DNA from: a virus
Reading direction: 5' to 3' (one strand)
DNA length: 25,188 nt
IMG/VR virus record: IMGVR_UViG_3300027704_000146
Location: 1-25,188 of that record
Shown here: piece by piece, positions 13,460 to 23,286 of the stretch
Position numbering within the stretch: the stretch's first letter is position 1
How the letters are laid out: every line of letters begins with the position of its first letter
Made by a program: the position numbers and the translations under genes
The notes under the pieces: model-generated
What the model was told of the DNA's origin: nothing
What the model saw: only the letters and a program-made list of their open reading frames with translations
The model's database searches: none

Positions 13460-13605
13460 TCTGTCCTCCAGCCATCACACATACTTGAGTCAACATCTAA
13501 AGGTTTACAGATTAGCTGCTCCTCTATTATTGTAGGCAGATCTTTTTCACTGTCATCAATCATTATAAGACCAACACCTAAAGCCAGTATTATTAAGAGG
13601 TTCAT
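13456..13605 (-). CDS. 49-aa secreted or anchored small peptide
   Basis: ATG 13605 overlaps the RNR stop as ATGA, and the frame ends at TGA 13456-13458, which overlaps the next start. The N-terminus is a short hydrophobic segment (MNLLIILALGVGLIMI), then an acidic polar part with two Cys (ICKPLDV and SSMCDGW). It could be a signal-anchored peptide facing the periplasm; the hydrophobic segment is short for a full membrane helix. No classical lipobox is seen. The start relies on coupling, since no strong Shine-Dalgarno precedes it. Role unknown. Confidence 0.6.
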   Translation of the reverse strand: MNLLIILALGVGLIMIDDSEKDLPTIIEEQLICKPLDVDSSMCDGWRTE

Positions 13606-15572
13606 TCTACATCCCTCTCTTCTTCAACTAGGTCAACTAACTCACACACACTGCCAGTGCACGCCAGTGTCTTAGTGCCCACTGTCATATCTGTCAGCTC
13701 ATATGTGCTAATCAAGTTCCAGTCTACAGCCTTTGGCATTTTCTTAGCCAGCTCTGTGTACTCCTCCTTGGTGCAATCTTCATACGGTGCTTGCTGGTAT
13801 GAGTGATCAGAATGTGGTAGAAAAGAAACACCACTAACATCATCAAAGTTTTTGTACACCCAGGCTCCTACTTCCATCCACTCGTGCTCTCTGACACTGA
13901 TTGTTACACTAGGCTTATGCTCACAGTAATACTTTTGGTATGTAAACCACAGCTCTAGTTGCTCAATAGCAGTCCTTTCATTCCTAAGCACAGCACCCTT
14001 TGGTGCTTTCATAGGGAAAGTAAATACCTTAACACTCTTTGGTTTCATAACATCAACCTCGCAAGGGATGCCTTGATCTTCCATAAGTTGTGCTATTGGG
14101 TCTTTGGCATCTGCTCTTACTCTTCTAAAGTAGTAATCGTTGTGCCTTGTATGTATTCCACTGGCACTGTCAACTAACTGACTGACTGTACCACTAGGTT
14201 TGATGGCAGTGGTTGCTGCTGATTGGCTTATGCCAAGGACCTTTGACCACTCTTTGTTTGTAGCAACGGTTTGACTTTTAAGAGACTGTAAGAAATCAGG
14301 TAAACTTTTCTTACCATAGTGTCCTCTGCTAGTGTCACCACCATTCATAAAACTGTTGTCCATTATACCAGTCAAGCTGACACCTAACAGGGCTTCTTCT
14401 TCTGTATTGTGCACCCACTTAGGTCGCAATCTTTTGATGTCGGTCAGTGATGCCTGGAACGTGCCAAGTATAGTGGCAAGTTTTACCTTACGCATTATGT
14501 CCGACTGGCTGTCTTCTGCTCTGACTACAACTTCAGTTAGATTACAGAACTGACCATCTCTTAGTATGATTTCACTGCAAGGGTTGCAGCCAAACTCGTG
14601 GTCAGTATCACGTCTTCCGTTAGTGCCAAACTCAACTTGCTTCTTTGCAGCTTCCCTGTTAAATATACCACGCTCACCTGATTTAGATTCATAAAGTGAT
14701 GTCCATTCTTTCATAAAGATACCAATATCTGGCTTCTCTGTATAGCACACACTGTTGTTACTTAGTGCCATCTCTGGTGTATCACTCCACCACTGGCCAG
14801 ACTTAGCACTACGCATACGTTCATCAGTTAAATTACTTAGGGAAATCAACGCACTACGCCTGACTCCACCTACTACAACTACCTCCGCAATCTTACACAT
14901 CATACGGTGACACTCATAGCTGGTTAGCTTTCTGCCTATTGCTTCTTTGAACAGGTTAGTAGTAAAATTAAACAAGTCAAGCAATGGCTCTGGTCCACTA
15001 GCTCTACCACCAAAGGTGGATAGTCTTGCACCTTTAGGTCTGACCTTAGAGAAATCCCACTTGGGCATCTCACCATCGTATAGGTATGTAATCAACTTAC
15101 GAAATGCAGACTGCCACCCTTCTTTTGAGTCTTTGACAACCACCACATCATCAACGTCTATCATCTCTGGTGGTATTTCAGGCAGCTTAGTTACAAACTG
15201 TCTCTCAACACTAAAGCCTACGCCAGTACCGTGCATCAGAACATAGAGGCATTCATCAAATGCTTTCCAGTGATCAACACTCAGGTAAGCACAGTTGTAT
15301 CCTGCTATATTGTTTTCTTTTAGTGCCTTGCCTGCAGTCATCAGTGCTCTCATACTAGGCATTACTTCTAGTTTAAGAACAGCAGTCTCTAATTCCTTTC
15401 GGACCTTTGGTGTTAGCTCACCTTCTGTATTGTCTTTAAGGTGCTCTTCCATAAAGTCAAAGTAACGTGCAACTGTTTCTTCCCACGTCTCTCTTCTTTT
15501 CTTTTCTGGTAACCACCTGGCGTATCTGCTCAGTGCTATAAAATTCTGGTAGTCATTTGGTAATGTGTTCAT
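13602..15572 (-). CDS. nrdJ: Class II (adenosylcobalamin-dependent) ribonucleoside-triphosphate reductase, monomeric
   Basis: A 656-residue enzyme that reduces ribonucleoside triphosphates to dNTPs with coenzyme B12. Segments match monomeric class II RNR: MPSMRALMTAGKAL, AGYNCAYLSV (C94), HGTGVGFSVE (114-123), VRRSALISL, FGCNPCSEIILRDGQFCNLTE and a C-terminal CTGSVC. C332 and E334 fit the radical cysteine and acid of NPCxE; C94 and C343 fit the disulfide pair (the 332-to-343 spacing of 11 equals 408-to-419 in the Lactobacillus leichmannii enzyme). C638 and C643 fit the re-reducing tail pair (CxxxxC). It is shorter than the Lactobacillus enzyme (739 aa). The start overlaps the preceding 67-aa gene by 4 nt. 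It makes the phage dependent on B12 in the host. Confidence 0.93.
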   Translation of the reverse strand: MNTLPNDYQNFIALSRYARWLPEKKRRETWEETVARYFDFMEEHLKDNTEGELTPKVRKELETAVLKLEVMPSMRALMTAGKALKENNIAGYNCAYLSVDHWKAFDECLYVLMHGTGVGFSVERQFVTKLPEIPPEMIDVDDVVVVKDSKEGWQSAFRKLITYLYDGEMPKWDFSKVRPKGARLSTFGGRASGPEPLLDLFNFTTNLFKEAIGRKLTSYECHRMMCKIAEVVVVGGVRRSALISLSNLTDERMRSAKSGQWWSDTPEMALSNNSVCYTEKPDIGIFMKEWTSLYESKSGERGIFNREAAKKQVEFGTNGRRDTDHEFGCNPCSEIILRDGQFCNLTEVVVRAEDSQSDIMRKVKLATILGTFQASLTDIKRLRPKWVHNTEEEALLGVSLTGIMDNSFMNGGDTSRGHYGKKSLPDFLQSLKSQTVATNKEWSKVLGISQSAATTAIKPSGTVSQLVDSASGIHTRHNDYYFRRVRADAKDPIAQLMEDQGIPCEVDVMKPKSVKVFTFPMKAPKGAVLRNERTAIEQLELWFTYQKYYCEHKPSVTISVREHEWMEVGAWVYKNFDDVSGVSFLPHSDHSYQQAPYEDCTKEEYTELAKKMPKAVDWNLISTYELTDMTVGTKTLACTGSVCELVDLVEEERDVE

Positions 15573-20146: not shown

Positions 20147-20171
20147 TTAAAAGGGCTACCGAAGTAGCCCC
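20147..20171 (-). terminator. Intrinsic terminator with UUCG tetraloop
   Basis: On the - strand GGGCTAC-TTCG-GTAGCCC (20170-20153) is a perfect 7-bp stem with a UUCG loop, followed directly by TTTTAA. This is a classical rho-independent terminator after SSB and just before the primase-helicase gene. It should make SSB transcripts more abundant than those of the replisome, with read-through supplying the rest. Confidence 0.85.
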
Positions 20172-20196: not shown

Positions 20197-20580
20197 TTAG
20201 AAATCAGATTGGTCTGCTTCTTCCACACCTTCTGCTTTCTGTTCGACTCGGATCGCTTCCAAGTAAGCAAAGGCATCCCACTTTCCCTTGCCTTGCTTAG
20301 CTTTTACAGTGACCTCATCGCCAAAGAAAGATAGATGATTAACATCCACCAGCTCTCTGTCTTTGTTGTAAATCTTTGGCAGCCCAAAGTCAACCTTACG
20401 CTTCACAGTAATCTGGGTAGCACCCTCATACTGTCTAGTCTTAAGACCAAGCTTTTCTGCAAGCTGTTTGCTTGCCTTGTCCAAAGCAATTGTCAAAGCA
20501 TACTTTTCCACACCCTCATACTCGTCTGGTTTTGCAACCTGATTGAATACAACCTTTCCAACAAGACTCATAACACTCAT
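20197..20580 (-). CDS. ssDNA-binding protein, T7 gp2.5-like
   Basis: The chosen start is ATG 20580 with AGGAG 8 nt upstream, giving 127 residues; an in-frame GTG at 20589 is less well placed. The protein reads as a compact beta-rich OB fold: SLVGKVVFNQVAKPDEYEG, YALTIALDKAS, TQITVKRKVDF, EVTVKAKQGKGKWDAFAYLEAIRV. It ends with an acidic tail closing in an aromatic residue (EGVEEADQSDF). An acidic tail ending in Phe is the mark of T7 gp2.5, where it contacts polymerase and primase-helicase. T7 gp2.5 is longer (232 aa). It is the first gene of the replication block and has its own terminator downstream. Confidence 0.8.
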   Translation of the reverse strand: MSVMSLVGKVVFNQVAKPDEYEGVEKYALTIALDKASKQLAEKLGLKTRQYEGATQITVKRKVDFGLPKIYNKDRELVDVNHLSFFGDEVTVKAKQGKGKWDAFAYLEAIRVEQKAEGVEEADQSDF

Positions 20581-20611
20581 ATTTAACACTCCTATACATT
20601 AACATTAAAAG

Positions 20612-20626
20612 ACCCTCTAATGGGGT
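20612..20626 (-). other. Weak terminator-like hairpin ahead of SSB
   Basis: On the - strand ACCC-(7 nt)-GGGT is followed by CTTTTAA. The stem is only 4 bp, so it is a poor terminator on its own, but it follows a 16-bp hairpin at 20646-20694 and may add to it. Confidence 0.25.
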
Positions 20627-20645
20627 TTGCCTAGCAGGTAATCCT

Positions 20646-20694
20646 ACTAAGAATGCACTGGAAAATAAGGAAGGAAAACCAGTGCATACTTAGT
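20646..20694 (-). repeat. Long inverted repeat / RNA hairpin downstream of the 55-aa gene
   Basis: Arms 20646-20661 (ACTAAGAATGCACTGG) and 20679-20694 (CCAGTGCATACTTAGT) pair at 15 of 16 positions. The - strand loop (17 nt) is almost all pyrimidine. The arm ends with CTAAG/CTTAG, as does the other long hairpin at 20886-20948. No U-run follows directly, so it is not a plain terminator; it could stabilise an RNA end, bind a protein or attenuate. Confidence 0.7.
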
Positions 20695-20698
20695 GAGA

Positions 20699-20866
20699 CT
20701 AGAACAAGGGCTCAAACTCTATACCCTGATCAACCAGCTTTTGAAAGTGGTCAGCTTTTACTTTATAGAACTTAGCATCTTTGGATCTGTCTTCAAAGTC
20801 TGCATCATATTGCCTGTTCCTGGCACTTTTAAGTTCTTTAATACAATCAGTAAGGTTAGTGTCCAT
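20699..20866 (-). CDS. 55-aa early protein, unknown
   Basis: ATG 20866 with AGGAG 5 nt upstream, TAG at 20699-20701. The product is highly charged and helical: MDTNLTDCIKELKSARNRQY, DADFEDRSKDAKFY, then a C-terminus VDQGIEFEPLF. There is no membrane segment. It is the first gene after the strong promoter at 20961-20990 and is enclosed between two long inverted repeats, so it is probably made in quantity. Short charged phage proteins with an 'EFEPLF'-type end occur next to replication genes, but I cannot give a function. Confidence 0.65.
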   Translation of the reverse strand: MDTNLTDCIKELKSARNRQYDADFEDRSKDAKFYKVKADHFQKLVDQGIEFEPLF

Positions 20867-20885: not shown

Positions 20886-20948
20886 CTAAGATTGTCTAGG
20901 TTATTATTGCTATATAGTAGATATCATAAACAACCTAGACTTTCTTAG
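20886..20948. repeat. 17-bp-arm inverted repeat in a promoter leader
   Basis: Arms 20886-20902 (CTAAGATTGTCTAGGTT) and 20932-20948 (AACCTAGACTTTCTTAG) match at 15 of 17 positions; the only mismatch is a symmetric TT/TT pair. The 29-nt spacer is AT-rich. In the leftward transcript from the promoter at 20961-20990 this would form a hairpin about 6 nt from the 5' end. As DNA it could also be a protein or recombination site. Confidence 0.75.
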
Positions 20949-20960
20949 CAAAGAAATAAA

Positions 20961-20990
20961 ATTATAGCATATTTCCAGAGAAATAGTTAA
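20961..20990 (-). promoter_or_regulatory. Strong leftward promoter with extended -10
   Basis: The -10 is TATAAT (20966-20961) with TGC just upstream, a perfect extended -10. The -35 is TTAACT (20990-20985, 4 of 6 match) with an 18-nt spacer. The start of transcription would be near 20954. It drives the 55-aa gene and SSB, and by read-through the replisome. It looks like a host sigma-70 promoter. Confidence 0.75.
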
Positions 20991-20999
20991 GTGCTTAAC
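20986..20999. promoter_or_regulatory. Palindromic operator candidate over the -35
   Basis: GTTAAG-TG-CTTAAC is a 6+6 palindrome with a 2-nt centre. It covers the -35 of the promoter at 20961-20990 and the stop codon of the 72-aa gene. A dimeric repressor bound here would block RNA polymerase. The phage HTH protein at 21577-22032 is a candidate ligand. The same half-sites occur, 10 nt apart, just after the SSB gene (near 20174-20195). Confidence 0.45.
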
Positions 21000-21425: not shown

Positions 21426-21580
21426 CTCTGACCTCCAAAAATACCTCTAAATGAGTAGCTAAGTTTATTCTTAGCCACTTGCTTGCCTAAACCAACAATT
21501 GTATCAAGATCATCCATTACGCCTGTTGCTTTAGTTTCCTTTTGTTGCTTATCCTTCTTGTGTTTTGTTTTTGTTTTCAA
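21422..21580 (-). CDS. 52-aa basic protein, TTG start
   Basis: TTG 21580 overlaps the stop of the HTH gene as TTGA, and GGAGG sits 5 nt before it. The stop overlaps the next ATG as ATGA. The N-terminal 19 residues are almost all Lys, Thr and Gln (MKTKTKHKKDKQQKETK), then a helical part (VMDDLDTIVGLGKQVAKNKL) and the end RGIFGGQR. The basic tail suggests nucleic-acid contact. Perfect fit between neighbours and a strong ribosome site support it as real despite the TTG start. Function unknown. Confidence 0.6.
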   Translation of the reverse strand: MKTKTKHKKDKQQKETKATGVMDDLDTIVGLGKQVAKNKLSYSFRGIFGGQR

Positions 21581-22032
21581 CTTATCCTCCTTCGTTTGAG
21601 TGCATCCATTTCTTCTTTATGTGAATCATAGACATTAACTATACTTCCTTCATTGTCATCCCTCCATTGCTGTCTGCCCCTTCTTCTAAAATCAGCTAGT
21701 GCAGATTGCTGGGTGAATGACAATATCTTACCATACCTATCCCTGGGCAATTCACCTTTTGCAGATATACCATCCATATAACTAGGATTTACTGGTATTC
21801 CAGAAACAACCTGGACCGCATCATCCCGCCATCTAGTAGTGCCAATGGGCCTGCCCGTTCTGGCCTTATCCATCATCAATTCTGATCCTTTTAAAGAAAG
21901 TACATACTCCCTGCTTGATGATTTTTTTAATCTTCTGTATGCAGCTATTCTGCTTATCCCAGCTATTTCAGCAACAACACCTGTTGTTAAATAACTACCA
22001 TCATCCATTAAATATTGCTTAAAGTCGCTCAT
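21577..22032 (-). CDS. HTH DNA-binding protein, probable phage regulator
   Basis: A 151-residue protein. Residues about 14-38 (YLTTGVVAEIAGISRIAAYRRLKK) form a helix-turn-helix with the usual 'vAeiagiSr.aayRRL' spacing. The C-terminal half is basic and polar (RRRGRQQWRDD, and a last part LKRRRIS), possibly a second nucleic-acid contact. GGAGG lies 6 nt before the ATG. It comes after an intrinsic terminator at 22114-22149, so it may have its own or a read-through supply. Its place upstream of the operator-promoter at 20961-20999 suggests it regulates the shift to replication genes. Its target is not shown. Confidence 0.65.
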   Translation of the reverse strand: MSDFKQYLMDDGSYLTTGVVAEIAGISRIAAYRRLKKSSSREYVLSLKGSELMMDKARTGRPIGTTRWRDDAVQVVSGIPVNPSYMDGISAKGELPRDRYGKILSFTQQSALADFRRRGRQQWRDDNEGSIVNVYDSHKEEMDALKRRRIS

Positions 22033-22113: not shown

Positions 22114-22149
22114 CAAAAATAAAAGGCACTCTGGAAGATCCAAAATGCC
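22114..22149 (-). terminator. Intrinsic terminator before the HTH gene
   Basis: On the - strand GGCATTTTGGA-TCT-TCCAGAGTGCC (22149-22125) makes an 11-bp stem with two G-U pairs, followed by TTTTATTTTT (22124-22115). It lies after the 37-aa gene and before the HTH gene. Confidence 0.8.
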
Positions 22150-22163
22150 CTTAGTTTTTATAA

Positions 22164-22291: not shown

Positions 22292-23020
22292 TTAGTGGTT
22301 TAAATAGCTTATTGTTTGTACGCTAGTATCCCAGCATTTATCGCAAGTTCCACAGTGCCCAAAATCAAACGTTCTCTTTTCTTCTGTAGTGTAGTTATCA
22401 ACTTGTTTTTGGCTATGAATTTTAAAATCTTTATCCGTTAAAAAACTTTTACAGGTTGCTTGATCGTGATTAGATACAACGGTGCTGGTGTGCTTATATT
22501 TTGGAGCCTTTCCATCAACGAAGGACCCGCTTAAACGTATGATCAAGTTCTTAGGAATGGAGCCTTTATATTTATGGATAAAATTGCTTTCCTTCGTTGG
22601 GAGCCAGTGCCTGACATTTGGCGTTGCTTCTGCTATTTTAACTATCTTATGAAGGTGATCAGTGCTCTGGATGTCCCCTGAATCGTGCCAACGAAATAGG
22701 CCGCTGGTAACCACTGATTTTTGATTATTCATAATATAGATCATTGCATTAACCCAGTTTGGATTGTCCAGGGATTCAAGCCTCCTTTGCATTGCAGGCT
22801 CGATGTTTTTAGCATAACGGACATAGTTTCCCTTTAATGCATAACAAGTGCTGCAAACGGTGTTTTTGATCTTTCTAAGCTTTGATCCTGTCTTGCATTT
22901 GTGAGCAGATGTTGACCAGCTAATCGTTTCCATTTTTCTGGTAACTGTCCAACCTCCAACGGTCTCTTTTGCTTGTTTTAATGTCTTGATCGGAACTGTA
23001 AGATTATTTTGTAAGTTCAT
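22292..23020 (-). CDS. GP88-family cysteine-rich protein
   Basis: A 242-residue protein resembling the phage 'gene product 88' family, of unknown function. Cysteines are clustered: C42, C56 and C59 (HKCKTG...VCSTCYALKGNY), C190, then C223, C226 and C229 (HCGTCDKC). FRWHDSGD at 109-116 and LPTKESNF are the conserved middle motifs. The Cys clusters suggest metal or Fe-S binding. A shared AAGGAAGGGAAA leader precedes both this gene and the 57-aa gene upstream. The family call is by memory of its motifs; a radical-type or nucleic-acid role is not established. Confidence 0.6.
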   Translation of the reverse strand: MNLQNNLTVPIKTLKQAKETVGGWTVTRKMETISWSTSAHKCKTGSKLRKIKNTVCSTCYALKGNYVRYAKNIEPAMQRRLESLDNPNWVNAMIYIMNNQKSVVTSGLFRWHDSGDIQSTDHLHKIVKIAEATPNVRHWLPTKESNFIHKYKGSIPKNLIIRLSGSFVDGKAPKYKHTSTVVSNHDQATCKSFLTDKDFKIHSQKQVDNYTTEEKRTFDFGHCGTCDKCWDTSVQTISYLNH

Positions 23021-23243: not shown

Positions 23244-23273
23244 AAAGAATTAAGGCCCTGATCATCAAGGCCC
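23244..23273 (-). terminator. Probable intrinsic terminator
   Basis: On the - strand GGCCTTG-ATGAT-CAGGGCC (23272-23254) forms a 7-bp stem with one G-U pair and is followed by TTAATTCTTT. The tail is only partly U-rich. It lies between the 43-aa and 57-aa genes and probably reduces read-through. Confidence 0.55.
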
Positions 23274-23286
23274 TAAATGTTTACAG

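Follow-up and report, generated by a model that had tools for sequence, protein, structure and literature searches.

The window (the whole stretch of viral DNA that was analyzed, 25,188 nucleotides) carries, upstream of a gene for a single-stranded DNA-binding protein (SSB), a leader that comparison with relatives shows to be an RNA folded on the SSB strand, tied to SSB and under selection for structure. The chances appear roughly balanced that this structured 5′ leader of the SSB transcript sets SSB synthesis, most likely via SSB itself, and we infer that control of SSB synthesis, exerted after transcription, is its most likely role. The original prediction of a structured leader was right about its first hairpin (H1), and overlooked hairpins H2, H3 and H4, an invariant AUGWUAA motif and the terminator of SSB. 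The features, in the order in which the minus strand is read, are as follows.

20986–20999, minus strand: palindrome GTTAAGCACTTAAC over the −35 (present; at chance level and not conserved)
20961–20969, minus strand: leader promoter, extended −10 TGCTATAAT (from sequence)
20886–20948, minus strand: H1 hairpin, an inverted repeat, predicted first structure of the leader RNA (folding and comparison)
20699–20866, minus strand: 55-aa gene, separating H1 from H2 (no fixed part of the element)
20695–20701, minus strand: 5′ half of the H2 outer extension, UAGUCUC, with the UAG doubling as stop codon for the 55-aa gene (RNAalifold)
20647–20693, minus strand: H2 hairpin (arms 20693–20679 and 20661–20647; loop 20678–20662, UUUUCCUUCCUUAUUUU)
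20639–20645, minus strand: 3′ half of the H2 outer extension, AGGAUUA, common to H3 (RNAalifold and pairing test)
20632–20649, minus strand: H3 hairpin, UAGUAG-GAUUAC-CUGCUA (tree-aware pairing test)
20612–20626, minus strand: H4, a small variable hairpin (comparison; weak in the window itself)
20599–20605, minus strand: invariant AUGWUAA, AUGUUAA in the window (alignment)
20589–20595, minus strand: SSB Shine-Dalgarno sequence, AUAGGAG (from sequence)
20197–20580, minus strand: SSB gene, 127 aa, ATG at 20580 (alignment and AF2 model)
20153–20170, minus strand: hairpin resembling a terminator, GGGCUAC-UUCG-GUAGCCC with UUUU behind it, just 3′ of SSB (comparison)

Relatives were collected with an SSB protein search (three viral contigs), an exact 21-mer from H2 (13 contig stretches with the identical 21-mer), a primase-helicase alignment search (80), a pattern for the second clade (24), and an SSB alignment (72); L004–L008, obtained by pattern search, were rejected as unrelated hairpins. 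The recurrent order was promoter, H1, H2, H3, H4, AUGWUAA, Shine-Dalgarno sequence and SSB. Directly upstream of SSB, a covariance model spanning H2 to the Shine-Dalgarno sequence scored at least 54 bits in 64 of the 70 SSB loci, and it gave one strong sense-strand match per record in 19 whole records (the window's record included), these counts including model-building sequences and near-duplicates, with about 46 leaders being distinct. Loci lacking a strong match number six and form the deepest SSB branch (52–55% identity), and the deepest relatives, L186–L191, have no recognizable H2. Upstream of SSB, L186–L191 retain a promoter along with inverted repeats rich in CTTAG/CTAAG, and this region is possibly a diverged form of the leader. 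Distant primase-helicase relatives (L079–L102, 32–36%) gave no covariance model match with E below 1. A search of 50,697 phage records showed no match to SSB or to the window DNA, the closest isolate by primase-helicase being Pelagibacter phage HTVC115P at 34% at best, and no SSB relative was found in the prokaryote genomes searched. Rfam 15 gave 0 matches at gathering score and, at E ≤ 1, only a spurious antisense miRNA hit; no description of the leader was found in the open-licence literature, an earlier report elsewhere being possible.

For the pairing test, the 46 distinct leaders were cut into arms, and the null was produced by re-placing the substitutions of each column randomly on a tree that was independent of the leader, being made from the SSB coding sequence. 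H2, about 190 bases downstream of H1 and better conserved than it, gave the clearest result: in its inner helix, 414 of 414 cells were canonical (null mean 0.643, maximum 0.790), with two-sided changes at 9 of 9 pairs and 20 further pair types. G-U was found in 19 cells across several pair positions and A-C in 0, the cells not being independent events; the presence of G-U and absence of A-C point to the sense RNA as the strand that folds. The outer extension (UAGUMUU with AGKAUUA), with which H2 becomes a long near-continuous helix of ~22 bp, was 98.4% paired against 92.9% in the null, a level reached by 9 of 1000 null sets, and retains wobble pairs. H3 was 98.2% paired over the 46 leaders against 90.5% (1 of 1000 as good), its pairs being mostly invariant and its covariation resting mainly on one pair. 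H3 draws on bases of the outer extension (UAG, RGKAUUA), so the two are mutually exclusive; as each is supported, the leader may be bistable. The loop of H2 is U/C-rich and 13–20 nt long in every parsed leader, and contains CUUCC in most (L030 and L039 are without it); in the clade of L042, L043 and L166, a small hairpin is inserted in this loop, with ACUUCC retained. Two purine-rich pairing partners for the loop were tried and rejected: complementarity to the primase ribosome-binding site occurred in one contig (L069) and was not conserved, and kissing with the SSB Shine-Dalgarno sequence gave 4–5 pairs at most, G-U included. Many group-1 leaders have C(UUCG)G or C(UACG)G as H4, which differs elsewhere.

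H1 had been described in the original prediction as an inverted repeat, and was found at 20948–20886 with 15 of 17 pairs and a 29-nt loop. This is far beyond chance, since arms of 17 bp in which 15 or more positions pair, around a loop below 60, occur at only two loci in the 25,188 bases, H1 and H2 (20693–20647), both within the leader of the same SSB gene. Folded as RNA, H1 gave −21.4 kcal/mol with a z of −5.4, and the H1 region had a median z of −2.8 over 39 leaders, versus 0.0 in control windows. Its outer pairs numbered 13–15 of 15 in 17 group-1 leaders, and it was weak in part of group 2. Uncompensated change in the arms, which would have counted against the original prediction, was not seen in relatives: the H1 arms were retained across clades differing in sequence, weakly in some, and nearly all relatives have a hairpin closely following the predicted RNA start. 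In the clade of L061, the repeat starts immediately after the −10, so part of the 5′ arm may precede the RNA start.

RNA of the leader is predicted to start near 20954, and the extended −10 (TGCTATAAT) is present at 20969–20961 on the minus strand, as had been claimed. Sigma-70-like matches were not above shuffles (17 found, 25 expected), and the promoter is credible because it is conserved, not because of its match to consensus. Nearly all leaders without an insert have an AT-rich −10, mostly with TG, 66–107 nt 5′ of H2; other leaders have the form TTGACA-17-TAAAAT, and one or the other is present in nearly all. An extra 5′ hairpin just after the −10 was seen in L002, L009, L010, L014, L015 and L016, and in this L002 subgroup its loop carries CUCC or CUCCU, a perfect anti-Shine-Dalgarno sequence.

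The claim of a promoter and 5′ RNA structure ahead of SSB thus held in so far as both are conserved in relatives, and found no support as a switch for the 55-aa gene, which separates H1 from H2 in the window, L010 and L015 alone, and elsewhere sits just upstream of the promoter or 0.4–2 kb away. This gene has no family match and is kept in a group (L010, L015, L067, L068, L073, L121) at 47–100% identity where found; by this comparison it is an insertion in the window's leader, and the leader belongs to the SSB gene. A different insertion was seen in L036 (4333–4584), where an 83-codon ORF in the SSB leader separates H3 from the Shine-Dalgarno sequence; its last codons overlap, in a different frame, the region of the SSB start.

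In the original prediction, the palindrome over the −35 was an operator which, together with the 5′ hairpin, would serve repression by the HTH protein (21577–22032). GTTAAG-CA-CTTAAC is indeed a perfect palindrome at 20999–20986 on the minus strand, in one genome only. Five perfect 6-2-6 palindromes were found in the whole window, about 0.28 palindromes with a spacer of 0–8 are expected per 114 nt, and variants of the promoter palindrome were as frequent as in shuffles, with no second site. In the nearest relative, L001, which retains the HTH gene, the palindrome is already broken (GTTAACCACTTAAA), and it is absent in the other relatives. Being at chance level and not conserved, the palindrome is probably not an operator, and repression by the HTH protein at this site is barely credible. 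Elsewhere on the minus strand of the early region, strong terminator-like hairpins were seen at 22122–22152 (upstream of the HTH gene) and at 23250–23276 (further upstream). The window also encodes a GP88 family protein of unknown function (22292–23020, Pfam E 3e-27) and a ribonucleotide reductase similar to B12-dependent class II models (13602–15572).

The SSB gene most likely starts at the ATG at 20580, the listed GTG at 20589 falling in the Shine-Dalgarno sequence. Its protein sequence had no family match in Pfam, PHROGs or NCBIfam. The AF2 model (mean pLDDT 75), searched with Foldseek, matched Enc34 SSB (5odj, E 3e-5) and T7 gp2.5 (1je5, E 8e-4), and in the alignment the acidic C-terminal tail ends in F; the protein thus models as a T7 gp2.5/Enc34-type SSB, with an OB fold and an acidic C-terminal tail. 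Upstream of the gene, AUGWUAA is invariant apart from W in a 28-row alignment, and lies 6–9 nt 5′ of the Shine-Dalgarno sequence, in an A/U-rich stretch (AUGUUAAU) that was only about half unpaired in predictions. Downstream, a G+C-rich hairpin with a U-run is found in nearly all relatives, and with a promoter upstream and this terminator-like hairpin downstream, SSB is therefore its own unit. No terminator-like site was found in the leader between 20590 and 21000, which favors control after transcription. A transcription attenuator was rejected on the missing terminator hairpin with U-run in the leader; the T5 tract after H1 occurs in the window only and is absent in relatives, by which H1 as a terminator was also rejected.

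The mechanism that we favor would run as follows. A sigma-70-type promoter would start the RNA a few nt ahead of H1, which would close the RNA 5′ end, probably protecting the message. H2 would act as a rigid stem displaying its 13–20 nt U/C-rich single-stranded loop, followed by H3, H4, and the A/U-rich stretch with AUGWUAA and the Shine-Dalgarno sequence. SSB in excess over ssDNA would then bind the H2 loop and cover the A/U-rich ribosome-binding stretch, as gp32 of T4 does, and exchange between extended H2 and H3 may contribute to control. Covariation in H2, the UNCG tetraloops of H4 and the covariance model link to SSB were counted in favor of an RNA leader. Control is plausibly autogenous, by analogy with T4 gene 32, with SSB inferred as the binding partner. 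Against the autogenous reading are the half-unpaired AUGWUAA, a loop that differs across clades, and the lack of H2 in L186–L191, and the partner could instead be a host protein, an RNase or a small RNA. Moreover, gp2.5-type SSBs have limited cooperativity (PMC5686142), which makes spreading in the style of gp32 less natural and speaks against simply copying the gp32 model. A joint and tentative proposal, in our judgment unlikely to hold as a whole, is that the leader is a phage RNA switch of a new class, with an evolutionary origin separate from T4 gene 32. Its two helices, extended H2 and H3, mutually exclusive and both conserved, would together with the U/C-rich loop as sensor allow a gp2.5-type SSB to gauge free SSB against ssDNA and adjust its own translation accordingly.

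Instead of SSB feedback, the leader might be a stability or processing device that gives a long-lived SSB message, with H1 blocking 5′-end-dependent decay and extended H2 serving as an RNase III-type site or barrier. The hairpin right behind the predicted RNA start in nearly all relatives and the length and near-continuity of the extended H2 helix agree with this, as does the finding that no T4 mRNAs are more stable than those of gene 32 (PMC3014915). It leaves unexplained the retention of the U/C-rich loop, the invariance of AUGWUAA and the strict tie to SSB, and fits poorly with the weakness of H1 in part of group 2; we regard it as possible, though unlikely. The shared bases of the H2 extension and H3, with tree-aware support for both pairings (9/1000 and 1/1000), would suit a bistable switch: a ligand, a protein or the ribosome would shift the RNA back and forth between extended H2 and H2 plus H3, thereby opening or closing the SSB start. 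Few H3 pairs vary, covering of the Shine-Dalgarno sequence by either state is only putative, and extended H2 was favored by 3.8 to 11.9 kcal/mol in every distinct leader folded, and such a switch seems to us quite doubtful.

It is also conceivable that the element acts as DNA, as an origin or primosome site before the replication genes, with hairpins forming on single-stranded DNA. The leader does adjoin replication genes (SSB, primase-helicase and DNA polymerase), and H1 folding is strand-neutral. G-U without A-C in H2, the wobble pairs of the extension, the UNCG loops, and a promoter, leader and Shine-Dalgarno sequence laid out in that order all point to RNA, and a DNA element is very unlikely.

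The structured SSB leader is thus preferred as a control element of the SSB message. Message-specific regulation by SSBs beyond T4-type gp32 and M13 gp5 has been stated as unknown (PMC535899), and a strongly covarying, uncatalogued leader tied to a gp2.5/Enc34-type SSB makes the question of SSB-message regulation directly testable, while the covariance model provides a handle for annotating the leader in other viromes.

Among known systems, T7 gp2.5 and Enc34 SSB share with the encoded SSB its predicted fold and the acidic C-terminal tail with F as last residue; for SSBs of this class, the open-licence literature searched yielded no account of autogenous control or of a structured leader. The STAXI motif is likewise a candidate RNA structure near ssDNA-binding protein genes, with UUCG loops (PMC2864571), but consists of tandem pseudoknots near many kinds of genes, whereas here one array of plain hairpins occurs only before SSB; neither repeated pseudoknots nor an Rfam-type match at gathering score was found. 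In the T4/RB69 gene 43 (DNA polymerase) operator, a replication gene is also preceded by a hairpin with a conserved loop (PMC3014915), but that hairpin is 16–18 nt with a UAAC loop, whereas here the stem is 15–23 bp and the loop 13–20 nt, ~80 nt upstream of the start codon. The closest parallel is in layout, with the T4/RB69 gene 32 operator, where gp32, once it exceeds ssDNA, first binds the folded 5′ part and then covers an A+U-rich part that lacks structure, carries UUAA(A) repeats and spans the ribosome-binding site (PMC535899, PMC3014915). Both are 5′ leaders of a phage SSB gene with a folded upstream part, and the A/U-rich stretch that here reaches the Shine-Dalgarno sequence, with its UUAA-like AUGWUAA and about half of it unpaired in predictions, may correspond to the repeat-bearing part of T4. 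T4 has a small pseudoknot and a gp32-type SSB, whereas the leader described here has long hairpins, a pyrimidine loop, its own promoter and a gp2.5/Enc34-type SSB; the folding and covariation analyses used here gave the plain hairpins H1–H4 and no T4-type 5′ pseudoknot. The layout is therefore analogous to that of T4 gene 32 and not homologous, with autogenous binding putative here.
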